Source: Clostridia bacterium (lineage in GTDB: Bacteria > Bacillota > Clostridia > Oscillospirales > CAG-382). Taken from it: a stretch of 55,830 bases of DNA. Below the pieces are notes generated by a model that worked only from the letters and a program-made list of their open reading frames with translations, was not told the DNA's origin and did not search any database. A program made the position numbers and the translations under genes. Positions 1-8,215 of this stretch are shown one piece after another. The DNA lies in NCBI GenBank assembly GCA_017396825.1, contig JAFQKR010000020.1, forward strand, positions 1-55,830, written 5' to 3'. Positions within the stretch are counted from its first letter, which is position 1. Each line of letters begins with the position of its first letter.

Positions 1-66
1 GAGAATAACCAATACTATAAGAATATTGGATACCGCGCTTGTAATTTTTTTAGCTTTGTCGCTCAT
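1..66 (-). CDS. Probable SipW-type signal peptidase I, N-terminus only (cut by window edge)
   Basis: Only the first 22 codons are in the window. They read MSDKAKKITS followed by a hydrophobic run (AVSNILIVLVIL), as in the first membrane segment of a type I signal peptidase. A clear GGAGG ribosome binding site lies just upstream of the ATG at 66. The identity comes mainly from context: it is the last visible gene of a same-strand run, directly after two proteins with SipW-type signal peptides, and Bacillota commonly place the SipW-type peptidase beside such substrates. No catalytic residue is visible, so another small membrane protein is possible. Confidence 0.45.
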   Translation of the reverse strand, partial: MSDKAKKITSAVSNILIVLVIL

Positions 67-148
67 TTAAGTGTCCTCCAAACTGTGGGTTTTGCAGGGG
101 CGGGCTAGCCGCCCCTGCTAATTTTGTCACTATTTTTTATCTTATAAA

Positions 149-1042
149 TTAAGCCTGGGTGAACTTGAAGAAGGTGTTGAACTTGTTGCCGGAAATGTCG
201 TTCAGACAGTCAACATCCTGACCTTCGAGCCAAATGTATACACGAACCTTGTTTATACCCTTTGCGAAGGAGAAGAGGGTGGTAGCGGTGTTTGTAGCGC
301 CTTCAGCGGTTTCGCCGATTGCGGTGGTGGTAACAGCTGCGCCACCGTTAACCATGTCGAAATCGGTACTTTCAGCGTCAACGCCCTTGTAATCAACCTT
401 GGTGTTGTTAATAGCGTTGTTAGCAGCTACTGCGGAAGCGGTGTGCTTAGTAGCAGCGGGTTCCCAAATCATGGTGCCCTGGCTGGTCTTAAGAGCCTGT
501 GCAGCAAGACCGGTGTCAGCAGCGCCGAGGTAAATAAATGCTACGCGAGCAGCATAGTTGGTCTGTGCGCCATTGCTTGCGCTTACGTAAGAACCAGCGT
601 CAAGCTTGAGAGTCTTAGCAGCAGTCATGTTGAAGAAAAGGTCGAATGCATAGTAGTTACCTTCGGTACCCTTAACGTCAGAAACAGCTTCAGTAACAAG
701 CTTACCGTCAACGATAGAGCCATAGAACATAACCAAGTGACCGTCAGCATCAACGGTGCAGGGAGAGGAAACGGGAACTACCTGGGTTGCGGGGATCTGG
801 TTTACATTGCCCTGATAGCCGGTAAGGTTAGAAGTGATATCATCGTTGGTGAGATTGGACTTCCAAGAAGCGCCATCAACAGAAATCTGCATACCTTCTG
901 CTACCTTAACGTCGAGAGCGAGTTCGTTAACAGTTGCTTCGTTACTCATAGTAAACCATGCGTAGGATACGCCGGTAAGAGCAATTACGGAAACGAGAAC
1001 CATTGCGATTGCGGGGAGTAATGCTTTCTTTTTGAAGTTCAT
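149..1042 (-). CDS. TasA/camelysin-like secreted protein with SipW-type signal peptide
   Basis: This is a predicted exported surface protein of 297 residues. The start at 1042 (MNFKKK) is chosen over an upstream in-frame ATG at 1069 because GGAGG sits just before it. The signal has a lysine-rich head, a hydrophobic core and the ending GVSYAWFT, which resembles the cleavage region of substrates of the SipW signal peptidase. The mature part is rich in Ala, Thr, Asn and Asp and looks beta-rich. It ends with IWLEGQDVDCLNDI and an FF-K-F tail, a motif shared with the neighbouring 246-residue protein. The family role (TasA/CalY) is extracellular fibres or matrix. Fibre formation here is inferred from the signal type and neighbours. 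Confidence 0.7.
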   Translation of the reverse strand: MNFKKKALLPAIAMVLVSVIALTGVSYAWFTMSNEATVNELALDVKVAEGMQISVDGASWKSNLTNDDITSNLTGYQGNVNQIPATQVVPVSSPCTVDADGHLVMFYGSIVDGKLVTEAVSDVKGTEGNYYAFDLFFNMTAAKTLKLDAGSYVSASNGAQTNYAARVAFIYLGAADTGLAAQALKTSQGTMIWEPAATKHTASAVAANNAINNTKVDYKGVDAESTDFDMVNGGAAVTTTAIGETAEGATNTATTLFSFAKGINKVRVYIWLEGQDVDCLNDISGNKFNTFFKFTQA

Positions 1043-1151
1043 TTTTTTGCCTCCATTTTTTATAGTCATATTAAATCTATCTTGTATGTGTTGATGTTTG
1101 TTTTAGGTGGTGAGAGGGTTGCCAATACAATTTTTACGAAACTGAAAAGAG

Positions 1152-1892
1152 TTACGCCTTAACCTCTTCAGTTTCTAAAACATGAAATTGCATTGCCATT
1201 TTCATCTCCCCGCCTAAAATATCATCAACACATTCAGGATCTTCGCCTTCGAGCCATATTACCACGGTATATTTATCTATACCGCCTGCCTCAAGCCCCT
1301 CATAGGTCTGACTCATAACCTTTTTATTAGAAGTGAAAGGGGTCGTGTCGGGTTCCGGCTCACCGTTTGCCTTTTGGGGCTTTGCATACAAAGTCGGCTC
1401 GCCGTTACGGTACACCTTAACGCGCACCGCGTGGTCGGTGTCCTTATAAACGGATAAAATGTCGATGGTAGCCGCATAGTCAATGGCTTCGTCATCGTTA
1501 TTTCTTAAGTAAAACGTATATGCTATGTGATTGTCACCATTGTGGGAGCCGTCAACATCCGCTACGTCTGCGGGAAGCCATGACTCGGTTATATTGTCCA
1601 TACTCTCCACGGGATCCGCCTTAAGGAACGTGGACGCCACGGCAAAATCAGCAGTTTCGCTGATGGAAATACTTCGCGAACTGAGCCCCTCCGGCACGTT
1701 TACCGTAAAGTGACCCGCTTTATCTACAAAATACGCCAAGGAAAAAGATATTAGCAACAACAAAATACAGATAAGAGCCACGATGCCCGCGGTCCTAAGC
1801 CATATCCTCCTGCGGTAAACACCTTTTGCCGTTACACGCGTATTGAACATATTCATTTTGTTTACAGTGTTTGGATTGACCGAATTGCCCAA
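1152..1892 (-). CDS. Second TasA-like SipW-substrate protein with extended N-terminus
   Basis: This is a predicted exported or membrane protein of 246 residues. The best start is TTG at 1892, behind AGGAGGTGA. An internal ATG at residue 13 is an alternative. About 26 polar residues precede an arginine-rich stretch (YRRRIWLR), then a hydrophobic segment ending SFSLAYFVD, which resembles the AYF cleavage site of SipW substrates. The C-terminal part contains IWLEGEDPECVDDI, the same motif as in the downstream protein at 149-1042, so the two are probably paralogous partners. The long N-terminal extension could keep part of the protein at the membrane as an anchor or nucleator, which is inference. 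It lies 30 bases after the HD-GYP/EAL gene and is probably co-transcribed with it. Confidence 0.6.
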   Translation of the reverse strand: MGNSVNPNTVNKMNMFNTRVTAKGVYRRRIWLRTAGIVALICILLLLISFSLAYFVDKAGHFTVNVPEGLSSRSISISETADFAVASTFLKADPVESMDNITESWLPADVADVDGSHNGDNHIAYTFYLRNNDDEAIDYAATIDILSVYKDTDHAVRVKVYRNGEPTLYAKPQKANGEPEPDTTPFTSNKKVMSQTYEGLEAGGIDKYTVVIWLEGEDPECVDDILGGEMKMAMQFHVLETEEVKA

Positions 1893-1922
1893 CTTCCCAT
1901 CACCTCCTAAATTTCAGGGGTT

Positions 1923-3353
1923 TTAACCGATTATCTCGCTGAGGGTTATAGGTTGGCCTATAAGAGAGCCGCAAATTTTATCACATTCAAGTGTACGCAG
2001 TATTGCCCTTTGCTGTTCGGTTTCAACGTTCTCAGCAACGACCTCCGCACGCAGCGTTTTTGCCATTTCGATAATACCTTTAACAAGCCCCTTTACACGC
2101 TGACTGTCGTCAAGCTGTCTTACAAAGCTTTTGTCTATCTTAAGGATATCAAAGGGTACTTTATCTATACGAGAAAGGGCGGAATACTCCATACCAAAGC
2201 CGTATATTGCAATCTTTATGCCAAGCTCACGAAGTTTGCCAAGGGTGTCTATAAACGCCTCGTCTGCGGCGGCAACTGCGCTTTCCTTAACCTCTATTAT
2301 AAGAGATTTGAGAGAAACGTGATATGCGTCCGAAAGTTTTTTAAGTTTAGTTATAAGGTTGCGTTTTTTAAAGTACTTTTCCGGCACTCTTATAGAAACG
2401 CGTTTGGTATCAAAATAACGAGTCTTACCGACAACAAGCATTTCGAAAACCTGATCCATAACTATATCGGTAATATCGCATATCTTACCGGTGCTTTCTG
2501 CAACGGTAAGCAAAAGCTCGGTATTTATAACACCATAGTATCTATCGTTTATACAGAAATTACTTTCGTAATAAGAAGCGTTGTGAGCATCTATATCGGA
2601 AACGGGATAATACCAAACCTCAATAGGTCTTACGCTTTCGTTAAGCTTTTTATACGCCTCGGTAGTATTTGCGATCACCTTATCGTGCTTGCTTTGAGTT
2701 TCGTTAAACTGCTCTATCGTAGGAAAACTGTCGCCTTCAACCACAAGCTCATCCACACACTCCAGAAAAGCATCGTACAGAAGCGGGTCAAAGTTGGTAC
2801 CAACCTTCTCCTGCATTCTCTCAAAAGCGTCTGCTTTGGAAAGAGCAGGAACATTGTTTCTGCCAGAGGTATGTACATCAAAAACGTTGCATATACGGCA
2901 TATTCTGGCAATTATCGGGATATCCTCACCGGAAAGCCTGCCCGGCATACCGCTGCCGTTCCACTTTTCATGGTGAGAAAGGGCAGCATCTCTAGCCATG
3001 CCTCGTATAACCTTTTCTGCCGCGCTAAGGTCCTTAGTCTTTGTATGATCGCCATGACTTATTATCTCAGCGCCTACTACGGCATGCTTACCGGCCTTAT
3101 CTATCTCCATATCCTCGGTAATATACCCGATATCAAAGAAACGAACCGCGTCGTATACCAAGGGAGCATTTTTCATCTTCAAGCCGGCATCGGCATGATA
3201 AAGCTTTTTCTCAAGGGCCTTTTTGTAAAGAATCCACGCATTATATCCAATGCGTAAAGAATAAGCGCGCACCCCATCAGGTAACGCAGAAAACACGGTG
3301 TTTCTTTCCACCGCTTCACCGCTTTGAAGTTTTTGCTTTATCTCCGTTACCAA
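1923..3353 (-). CDS. Degenerate HD-GYP plus degenerate EAL domain protein (putative c-di-GMP sensor)
   Basis: The protein has 476 residues, starts at TTG, and has no membrane segment. Residues about 60-200 resemble an HD-GYP domain: HHEKWNGSGMP (127-137) matches the family motif, and KHAVVGAEII (90-99) matches a conserved helix. The HDIGK motif, however, reads FDIGY (73-77), so the metal-binding His and the Lys are lost. Residues about 270-470 resemble EAL: LIIEVKES, LKIDKSF and VVAENVET are present, but the catalytic DDFG reads YGFG (384-387) and no EAL tripeptide is seen. Such changes usually abolish c-di-GMP hydrolysis and leave a binding or scaffold role. Transcription is from a strong promoter at 3491-3519 and probably continues through the TasA-like genes and the signal peptidase. 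The ligand is inferred. Confidence 0.75.
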   Translation of the reverse strand: MVTEIKQKLQSGEAVERNTVFSALPDGVRAYSLRIGYNAWILYKKALEKKLYHADAGLKMKNAPLVYDAVRFFDIGYITEDMEIDKAGKHAVVGAEIISHGDHTKTKDLSAAEKVIRGMARDAALSHHEKWNGSGMPGRLSGEDIPIIARICRICNVFDVHTSGRNNVPALSKADAFERMQEKVGTNFDPLLYDAFLECVDELVVEGDSFPTIEQFNETQSKHDKVIANTTEAYKKLNESVRPIEVWYYPVSDIDAHNASYYESNFCINDRYYGVINTELLLTVAESTGKICDITDIVMDQVFEMLVVGKTRYFDTKRVSIRVPEKYFKKRNLITKLKKLSDAYHVSLKSLIIEVKESAVAAADEAFIDTLGKLRELGIKIAIYGFGMEYSALSRIDKVPFDILKIDKSFVRQLDDSQRVKGLVKGIIEMAKTLRAEVVAENVETEQQRAILRTLECDKICGSLIGQPITLSEIIG

Positions 3354-3490: not shown

Positions 3491-3519
3491 ATTATACATC
3501 TACGCCTATCTTTTGTCAA
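3491..3519 (-). promoter_or_regulatory. Sigma-A-type promoter for the HD-GYP/EAL-TasA-like operon
   Basis: On the minus strand TTGACA (3519-3514) is followed by a 17-base spacer and TATAAT (3496-3491), a perfect housekeeping promoter. The predicted start leaves a leader of about 130 bases before the TTG start codon at 3353. A second weaker candidate (TTGAAA, 17 bases, TATACA) lies within that leader. Confidence 0.8.
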
Positions 3520-6070: not shown

Positions 6071-7198
6071 TTAATAGTTGCCGGAGAACATAGCGCTGTT
6101 GTCGCCTGCATCAAAGTCACCGAAGTATGCCTTAACGTCCATACCGAGGTAGTTAGCCATATCGATCATTTCTCTTACGGTGTTTTCGTTAACCTTAATG
6201 CCGTTTGCCTTTCTGTCGGCAAGTGCTGCGATTTCCTTTTCGCCGTGGGTGTAGATGCGTTCTGCGCCCTCAGCCTTGGGGCTTTGACGAAGTTCTTCAA
6301 GATAGGTGCTGAAGTGAGCCTTTATATCCTCTGCGTTGCCGAAGAAGGAGGGGTTGATTGCCATGAAACCGTGGCAGATACCGCTCTTACCGTTTTTCAT
6401 ACAACCATTGGAGGTAACGCCCTGAGAAAGAATGGAAGCGAAGAATTCACATACCATACCCCAGCCATATCCCTTGTGGCTGCCAAGCTGTTCGCCGGAA
6501 CCGCCGAGAGGCATTATGCCGCCGCCGTTCTTTGCAACGATGTTCTTAAGAACGTCTGCTGCGTCGGAGGAAGGATGACCGTCCTTGTCGAGAGCCCAAC
6601 CTTCGGGAAGGGGCTTACTCATCTTATTATACATTTCAAGCTTACCGCGGGTAACAACGGTAGTAGAAGCATCAAAGAAGAAAGGATAAGGTTCAGCAGG
6701 TGCTGCCATTGCGATGGGGTTGGAGCCTATCATAGCAAGGCGGCCGAAGGTGGGAACCATTATAGCCTCGGAGTTGGTGCATGCGAAGCCAACGAGACCC
6801 TTGTCGCAAGCCATCTTTGCATAATAGCCGGCTATACCAAAGTGGTTGGAGTTTCTAACGGAAACGATACCAACGCCTGCGGTCTCTGCCTTTTTGATAG
6901 CAAGCTCCATGGCGTCGTGACCAACGAGCTGACCCATACCGTCATGCGCGTCGATAACTGCAGAGATAGGAGTTTCAAAAACAACCTCGGGTTTAGCATC
7001 GATTTTGATAGTGCCCTTTTCGATACCCTTGTGGTATCTTACGAGACGCTGCATACCGTGGCTTTCAATACCGTAAAGGTCGGAAAGCATAAGCACGTCG
7101 CTTATAATGCGGCTTTGCTCTTCAGTGAAACCGAACTTGCCAAAAGCCTCCATACAAAATTTGTCAAGATGTTCTGCGGAATAGGTTACGTATCCCAT
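6071..7198 (-). CDS. Ldh_2 family malate/lactate (2-hydroxyacid) dehydrogenase
   Basis: This 375-residue NAD(P)-dependent oxidoreductase belongs to the malate / L-lactate / sulfolactate dehydrogenase family, unrelated to classical LDH. Family traits visible are SDLYGIESHGMQRL near the N-terminus, VRNSNHFGIAGYYA, the TNSEAIMVPTFG segment, GSNPIAMAAP, and GSHKGYGWGM in the C-terminal half. An AAAGGAC site precedes the ATG at 7198. It is the first gene of the operon with malic enzyme and larA, behind a promoter overlapped by an inverted repeat. Malate or lactate is the likely substrate by context. The family is promiscuous, so other 2-hydroxyacids remain possible. Confidence 0.8.
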   Translation of the reverse strand: MGYVTYSAEHLDKFCMEAFGKFGFTEEQSRIISDVLMLSDLYGIESHGMQRLVRYHKGIEKGTIKIDAKPEVVFETPISAVIDAHDGMGQLVGHDAMELAIKKAETAGVGIVSVRNSNHFGIAGYYAKMACDKGLVGFACTNSEAIMVPTFGRLAMIGSNPIAMAAPAEPYPFFFDASTTVVTRGKLEMYNKMSKPLPEGWALDKDGHPSSDAADVLKNIVAKNGGGIMPLGGSGEQLGSHKGYGWGMVCEFFASILSQGVTSNGCMKNGKSGICHGFMAINPSFFGNAEDIKAHFSTYLEELRQSPKAEGAERIYTHGEKEIAALADRKANGIKVNENTVREMIDMANYLGMDVKAYFGDFDAGDNSAMFSGNY

Positions 7199-7271
7199 AA
7201 ATATCAGTCCTTTCCTGAAAATAAATTACTTACGTTTGACGGCATCATCCGCCACTTTTTTCCTAATATAT

Positions 7272-7300
7272 AAGTTATCACAATTATAGTGATTTTGCAA
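7272..7300 (-). promoter_or_regulatory. Promoter region with an inverted-repeat operator for the lactate/malate operon
   Basis: An inverted repeat of ATCAC, 7 bases, GTGAT (7277-7293) contains a TATAAT on the minus strand with only a weak -35 upstream. An alternative pairing is TTGCAA (7300-7295), 17 bases, TAACTT (7277-7272), which puts the repeat in the spacer. In either reading a protein bound at the repeat would block polymerase. The regulator is unknown. Confidence 0.5.
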
Positions 7301-7330
7301 TAGATTTTGCGATTTTTTTGGAATAAAAAG

Positions 7331-7360
7331 TTCCGCAAAGCACACCTTTGCTTTGCGGAA
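7331..7360 (-). terminator. Rho-independent terminator after folD
   Basis: The stem TTCCGCAAAGC with GCTTTGCGGAA is followed on the minus strand by CTTTTTA. It sits 10 bases past folD and closes the long thyX-to-folD gene run. Confidence 0.85.
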
Positions 7361-7369
7361 GGTAAAAAA

Positions 7370-8215
7370 TTATTTTAAATGGTTATTGTAAGCGGTAATG
7401 GTGTTTTCAAGAAGCATTGCGCGGGTCATAGGACCTACGCCGCCGGGCACGGGAGTTATGTAGGAAGCCTTCTCGGCGCAAGCTGCATAGTCCACGTCGC
7501 CGCAAAGCACGCCGTCCTTACGGTTCATACCAACGTCCACTATAACTGCGCCTTCCTTAACCATGTCACCGGTAATAAGGTCTGCCCTGCCGGCGGCGGC
7601 AATAAGGATATCGGCGCGGCGGGTATGGAAGGAAAGGTCGGCAGTCTTGGTATGGCAAACGGTAACAGTACCGCCTGCCGCGAGAAGAAGCAACGCCATC
7701 GGCTTGCCAACTATGTTGCTTCTGCCCACAACAACACATTCCTTGCCCTTTACGTCTATATTATATTCCTCAAGGAGACGCATAACACCGTAGGGTGTGC
7801 AGGGCTTGAATGCATCTCTGCCAAGGGTTATTTTACCAACGTTATAAGCGCTGAATGCGTCCACGTCCTTATCGGCACGGATACGCTCGGTAACCTTGGT
7901 CTCGTTAAGATGGCGAGGCAAAGGCAACTGTACCAATATACCGTCTACGCTATCATCATCGTTAAGACGGTCGATAAGGGATAGCAGTTCCTCCTCGGTG
8001 GTTTCCGCAGAGAGGGTGTTCATCAGACTTTTTATGCCTGTGGTTACACAGTCGTTATGCTTGTTTCTAACGTATATCTGAGAAGCGGGGTCCTCGCCAA
8101 CCAATATTACGGCTAGGCAAGGCTGTCTCTTGCCCTCTGCAGCGTAGGCAGCAGTTTTTACCGCTACCTCACCTCTTATTTTTGCGGCAAGATTTTTTCC
8201 GTCAAGTATAGTCAT
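7370..8215 (-). CDS. folD: Bifunctional methylenetetrahydrofolate dehydrogenase/cyclohydrolase FolD
   Basis: It converts 5,10-methylene-THF to 10-formyl-THF in the cytosol, supplying one-carbon units. Of 281 residues, recognisable parts are SQIYVRNKHNDC with the catalytic Tyr and Lys spacing, the GILVQLPLP motif, KPCTPYGVMRLL, VVGRSNIVGKPMALLL, and the PGGVGPMTRAMLLENT end signature. The ATG at 8215 is preferred to a GTG one codon upstream because GGAGG lies 7 bases before it. It overlaps the lgt stop codon, indicating translational coupling. It is the last gene before the terminator at 7331-7360. Confidence 0.95.
   Translation of the reverse strand: MTILDGKNLAAKIRGEVAVKTAAYAAEGKRQPCLAVILVGEDPASQIYVRNKHNDCVTTGIKSLMNTLSAETTEEELLSLIDRLNDDDSVDGILVQLPLPRHLNETKVTERIRADKDVDAFSAYNVGKITLGRDAFKPCTPYGVMRLLEEYNIDVKGKECVVVGRSNIVGKPMALLLLAAGGTVTVCHTKTADLSFHTRRADILIAAAGRADLITGDMVKEGAVIVDVGMNRKDGVLCGDVDYAACAEKASYITPVPGGVGPMTRAMLLENTITAYNNHLK

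Follow-up and report, generated by a model that had tools for sequence, protein, structure and literature searches.

The window, the whole 55,830-nucleotide stretch of DNA analysed here, is one contig (C90) of a 1.63-Mb Clostridia bacterium genome that is 87% complete. Near its first base, a set of consecutive genes runs along the minus strand behind a sigma-70-type promoter, TTGACA-17-TATAAT (3519..3491, minus strand), which matches the consensus at 12 of 12 positions. The first gene (1923..3353, minus strand) has a TTG start and encodes a 476-residue HD-GYP/EAL pseudoenzyme with a Pfam EAL match and a partial HD_5 match. It is followed by a 246-residue, membrane-anchored fibre-type protein (1152..1892, minus strand) and by a 297-residue secreted protein with a SipW-type signal, SYAWFT, that is probably a fibre subunit (149..1042, minus strand); we label these two proteins TasA1 and TasA2. 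The TasA2 start codon is an ATG with a GGAGG site, and a longer open reading frame, 149-1069, exists in the same frame. Bases 66 to 1 of the minus strand then encode MSDKAKKITSAVSNILIVLVIL, the first 22 codons of a putative SipW-type signal peptidase (1..66, minus strand), inside which the contig ends. The arrangement set out in the original prediction, an HD-GYP/EAL gene, two secreted fibre-type genes and the start of a probable SipW-type gene in succession behind one strong promoter, is therefore confirmed.

Between TasA2 and SipW lies a strong GC-rich hairpin (94..118, assigned to neither strand) that lacks a T run on the operon strand and is possibly a site of mRNA processing or partial termination. 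A comparison of the operon's leader with Rfam yielded nothing above threshold, riboswitches included. The best candidate for a known RNA, a sub-threshold L20_leader match (E 0.047; 25.9 versus 58.7 bits), is located upstream of the promoter and was rejected.

The remaining genes of the operon are found at the start of a second contig of the same genome, C63, which opens with a 30-codon tail of an open reading frame and continues with a McrB-like AAA+ protein and a DUF2357 (McrC-type) protein. C90, with SipW cut at its end, and C63 are separate contigs in the present assembly. In relatives, the gene order is SipW-type peptidase, AAA+ protein and DUF2357 protein, which agrees with the expectation that the gene past base 1 is a signal peptidase.

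The fibre-type proteins and the SipW-type peptidase

TasA1 consists of a conserved cytoplasmic tail, one transmembrane helix and a beta-sandwich outside the cell, and its homologues, 30-55% identical, occur in many genomes. Its structure model (mean pLDDT 85) has a long N-terminal helix followed by an all-beta part. The best VIA match to this model is the TasA fibre 8aur with a Z score of 7.1, tied with unrelated folds, and the top of the Foldseek list consists of other beta-sandwich proteins. Iterated profile searches show that TasA2 is homologous to TasA1; neither protein has a Pfam, NCBIfam or TasA family match. A SipW-type peptidase is present near the expected place in most of the relatives examined, where the proteins at this position score above the cut-off of TIGR02228; their matches to the SipW model, at about 1e-30, fall short of its strict cut-off. 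After the DUF2357 gene, the relatives' loci often go on to encode additional fibre-type proteins and another SipW.

The fibre operons SipW-TasA of Bacillus and SipW-BsaA of Clostridium perfringens likewise pair a SipW-type peptidase with small, secreted, fibre-forming substrates. In contrast to the window operon, the C. perfringens operon, sipW-bsaABCRSD, is described without an EAL or AAA+ gene, and the fibre-type proteins of the window, unlike those of the SipW-TasA systems, match no TasA family model.

Catalytic residues and fold of the 476-residue protein

Both domains of the first protein were predicted to be catalytically degenerate, with FDIGY in place of HDIGK and YGFG in place of DDFG. 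Both replacements are present, and further losses accompany them. The Pfam HD_5 match (3.6e-15) covers profile positions 100-168 only, which is the C-terminal part of the profile. Within the HD-GYP site, F73-D-I-G-Y77 replaces HDIGK, the last aspartate has become N156 and GYP reads GMP, while H127-H128-E129 is retained; the protein consequently departs from the metal-binding HD...HH...D and GYP signature of HD-GYP phosphodiesterases. The Pfam EAL match is much stronger (5.6e-45), and the first 12 profile positions, those of the EAL motif, are missing from it. At the EAL site, I-Y384-G385-F-G replaces DDFG with the loss of both aspartates, N322 is replaced by arginine, Q461 by cysteine, and EALxR reads ESNFC, which keeps E263 and loses the arginine. 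Altogether, E263, E354, K405 and E441 are retained, or four of the eight catalytic residues (E/N/E/D/D/K/E/Q). With these four in place, E441 among them, the protein may bind a nucleotide weakly.

The EAL half has nonetheless kept its fold. Its modelled blocks mostly exceed a pLDDT of 80, and its best VIA match, to 5m1t, has a Z score of 31.5 and a deviation of 2.0 A over 235 residues. Matches to solved EAL domains range from Z 25 to 31 and include structures of FimX and LapD, so that sequence (Pfam) and predicted fold (VIA) both place this half in the EAL family. The HD-GYP half is modelled less well, with low to middling confidence.

Conservation of the EAL-fibre gene pair

The original prediction had proposed a neighbourhood search with the 476-residue protein. 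A scan of genome contigs for its close homologues returned zero matches because the EAL gene diverges fast, and the fibre gene is the right probe; we therefore measured conservation with the 246-residue TasA1, and with this probe the arrangement proved to be conserved. TasA1 is present in 35 of 394 sampled genomes of the order, and at 486 confirmed loci among genomes taken one per species. An EAL open reading frame is located directly upstream of the fibre gene at 29 of 39 loci of the order. A second set of named genomes was drawn from the best 80 of the 486 loci, 77 of which had enough room upstream to be informative, and here the count is 58 of 77; about four loci are common to the two sets. 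Carriers in the second set include the cultured species Ruminococcus flavefaciens and Eubacterium ruminantium.

The operon's EAL protein takes two forms, an EAL domain alone (about 250-300 residues) or HD-GYP with EAL (430-495 residues). The window protein has the longer form, and three close relatives (L114, L116 and L117) share the layout of the window. About one quarter of the operons have no EAL gene directly upstream of the fibre gene, which means that the gene is either not essential to the machine or located elsewhere in those genomes. A search within the genus found the EAL gene absent from six relatives, one of which (G002) has the fibre operon without it. A degenerate EAL gene beside the same neighbour in dozens of genomes is far beyond chance, and the window operon exemplifies an operon class that is widespread in gut bacteria. 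The predicted operon for surface fibres, with its SipW-type peptidase and a catalytically dead HD-GYP/EAL protein as its first product, is thus conserved across Clostridia.

Degeneracy and selection across the class

Ordinary EAL domains from related genomes provide a reference for the loss of catalytic residues: 29 of 30 keep all eight and the remaining one keeps seven. None of the 89 operon EALs, a few of which are fragments, duplicates or split open reading frames, keeps more than five, and 74 of them keep two or fewer. The class range of 0-5 of 8, with the window protein at four, is therefore separate from the 7-8 of 8 found in ordinary EALs. The original prediction had depended on intact homologues being uncommon at this position. 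This is borne out for the EAL half, with 0 of 89 intact, and less cleanly for the HD-GYP half, since one long-form relative (L179) has an intact-looking HD-GYP site.

The operon EAL genes have dN/dS values of 0.03-0.06, calculated from close pairs with unsaturated dS, and the fibre gene next door has similar values. Strong purifying selection on genes with degenerate sites indicates functional pseudoenzymes. A pseudogene or decaying remnant is ruled out by these values together with intact open reading frames at nearly all loci; only L079 and L091 have a frame split by a stop. Judged from its residues, the class appears to have given up c-di-GMP hydrolysis while its gene remains under selection.

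The AAA+ and DUF2357 genes

The AAA+ protein is about 510 residues long with an N-terminal membrane segment, and in many loci the SipW-type gene directly precedes it. Those of relatives are 46-79% identical to the one on C63. Its motifs GISGTGKTS, LDEMN and NNDDS are intact, with NNDDS invariant in 15 proteins, and it matches E. coli McrB in a PDB profile search (4.2e-7). The N-terminus forms a hydrophobic helix whose FtsL-type matches are weak (E 0.07-0.2), and homology to FtsB is unconfirmed. The DUF2357 match on C63 scores 36.5 bits against a cut-off of 23.3. At one R. flavefaciens locus (L152), DUF2357 and a signal peptidase are fused in one polypeptide, which ties the McrC-type protein to export.

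These components resemble those of CoCoPALM, the McrBC-linked pilus-assembly systems named in 2024 (PMC11090510). As in the systems described there, the operon combines a McrB-like NTPase that has an N-terminal transmembrane part and an NxD-like motif, NNDDS, with a DUF2357 partner and a linked signal peptidase. Unlike in that account, the operon here regularly includes a pseudo-EAL gene and genes for fibre-type substrates, and the main text of the paper mentions neither EAL, SipW nor TasA. Our literature search traced CoCoPALM in the present sense to no source other than the 2024 paper and its preprint, and found nothing on EAL proteins with SipW/TasA operons beyond general Bacillus work; we found no earlier description of an EAL link to such operons. 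The window operon is best read as a CoCoPALM-type fibre operon with a pseudo-EAL member.

c-di-GMP in carrier genomes

The original prediction had further suggested that the first protein binds c-di-GMP and couples its level to matrix export. We detected 0 GGDEF domains in the window's own genome at its 87% completeness, and GGDEF is present in one of the seven genomes of the genus. GGDEF is also absent from 14 further carrier genomes, which are incomplete assemblies, five of which reach 97-98% completeness. Counting the window's own genome, there are 15 GGDEF-free carriers, and in 14 of them the operon EAL is the sole EAL domain; the exception (G185) carries an additional, intact EAL on a small contig, and its c-di-GMP status is less clean. 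Among the long-form relatives nearest to the window protein, three genomes (G024, G414 and G415) are without GGDEF and a fourth (G416) has one weak match. Ruminococcus carriers have 7-47 GGDEF domains, and their operon EALs are the most eroded, keeping 0-2 of 8 residues. Across the carriers, ligand residues are fewer in GGDEF-containing genomes (Mann-Whitney p 7e-8), a comparison that ignores shared descent and should be taken to mean only that nothing indicates a retention of ligand residues where c-di-GMP would be made.

These data bear on the first alternative, that the pseudo-EAL is a degenerate, ligand-binding c-di-GMP receptor like FimX or LapD and couples c-di-GMP level to fibre export. 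FimX, a c-di-GMP-binding EAL-domain protein, promotes the pilus motor ATPase PilB (PMC5595344), and FimX and LapD are among the fold matches of a domain that has retained E263, E354, K405 and E441; the Ruminococcus carriers, moreover, would have cyclases in number. Against this, the window protein has lost the arginine of EALxR as well as the asparagine, the glutamine and the two aspartates of DD, GGDEF is absent from 15 carriers in which the operon EAL is nearly always the only one, and erosion is greatest where cyclases are most abundant. Of the ligand pocket that the original prediction relied on, the window protein retains a part and the class as a whole little. A c-di-GMP-sensor reading of the window protein is not supported, the proposed coupling to matrix export is the weak part of the original prediction, and we consider a receptor of this kind unlikely.

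A proposed role for the pseudo-EAL

We propose, with a probability of roughly 0.6, that the pseudo-EAL is a cytosolic EAL-fold adaptor of an AAA+-driven fibre-export operon. The operon would make and export surface fibres from its ordered products: the pseudo-EAL, an anchored fibre protein, a secreted SipW substrate, the SipW peptidase, a membrane-anchored AAA+ protein and its DUF2357 partner. Made first, the soluble EAL-fold protein would dock on the cytoplasmic face of the machine, either on the tail that the anchored fibre protein extends into the cytoplasm or on the AAA+/DUF2357 motor, and once docked it would control the time or place of fibre assembly by gating or localising it. Its action would be that of FimX on PilB, except that c-di-GMP would not be needed in this organism.

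Known systems offer precedents for parts of this proposal. FimX, a degenerate GGDEF-EAL protein of type IV pili, likewise links an EAL fold to a filament system that has a motor NTPase. It differs in that it needs c-di-GMP binding to contact PilB, whereas many carriers here have no detected cyclase, and in its domain pairing, which here is HD-GYP with EAL or EAL alone. YdiV/RflP, a degenerate EAL protein that inhibits FlhD4C2 (PMC7515728), is an EAL-fold pseudoenzyme acting through protein binding, but it regulates enterobacterial flagellar transcription and stands outside any fibre operon. Compared with both precedents, the present operons differ in the AAA+/DUF2357 type of motor, in their SipW substrates and in the absence of cyclases from many carriers.

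Two further alternatives concern what the protein binds. Its pocket might have been reshaped to recognise a different ligand, be it pGpG, a linear nucleotide or some other cyclic dinucleotide, whose binding would then gate assembly. Conserved positions peculiar to the class are R242, N269, G274 and V424, with cysteine or proline at former neighbours of the active site, and these differ from the enzymes; the strong purifying selection would also fit. However, they form no recognisable nucleotide site, the pocket differs between subgroups of operon EALs, and no particular ligand is indicated, which makes this alternative quite improbable. Least probable is a YdiV-like transcriptional or post-transcriptional regulator that acts on the operon through protein binding from outside the machine: a soluble product of the first gene would suit it, as would YdiV itself, but the loci examined show no regular association of the operon with a transcription factor, and the partner of the EAL gene is the structural fibre gene, not a regulator.

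The adaptor reading may extend beyond this genome. Tentatively, and with less than even confidence, we suggest that EAL-fold (and HD-GYP-EAL) pseudoenzymes have been recruited across gut Clostridia as c-di-GMP-free adaptors of a McrB-like AAA+ fibre machine. The usual reading of an EAL domain is a c-di-GMP enzyme or receptor, and annotation pipelines mislabel this selected and conserved class. The operon class also offers a concrete handle on CoCoPALM: it points to SipW-type fibre proteins as the likely substrates and adds a new, conserved component in the cytosol. The hosts include many common bacteria of the rumen and gut, some of them in culture, such as R. flavefaciens, and the idea is therefore testable.

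The operon seems to continue on another contig of the same genome, C63, where genes for fibre-type proteins, a SipW-type peptidase and a giant protein follow the DUF2357 gene. These apparent further operon genes lie beyond the AAA+ and DUF2357 genes, at L194:4045-11999 on that contig, and encode three additional fibre-type proteins, a second and complete SipW-type peptidase (6860-7426) and a protein of more than 1,500 amino acids with a sub-threshold match to the SipW-cognate signal. A fusion of DUF2357 and peptidase was observed in Ruminococcus flavefaciens ATCC 19208 (L152:12269-15175), with the signal peptidase C-terminal to the DUF2357 domain in one protein and both matches within a single called ORF.

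The operon's pseudo-EAL gene is directly preceded in one relative by a gene for an intact EAL protein (L087:3734-5635), whose duplication is a possible source of the pseudo-EAL. In another (L179:2041-3507), a single fusion protein carries the pseudo-EAL together with an HD-GYP domain in which the metal residues appear intact, and a GGDEF domain was not found in that genome. Fibre-gene relatives also occur in MAGs of Bacilli and Collinsella (L119-L122, L174 and L181), where no EAL gene adjoins them.

Between the second fibre gene and the SipW gene, the window contains a strong GC-rich hairpin (94-118) with no run of T residues on the strand of the operon. This hairpin might determine how much fibre protein is made relative to peptidase.
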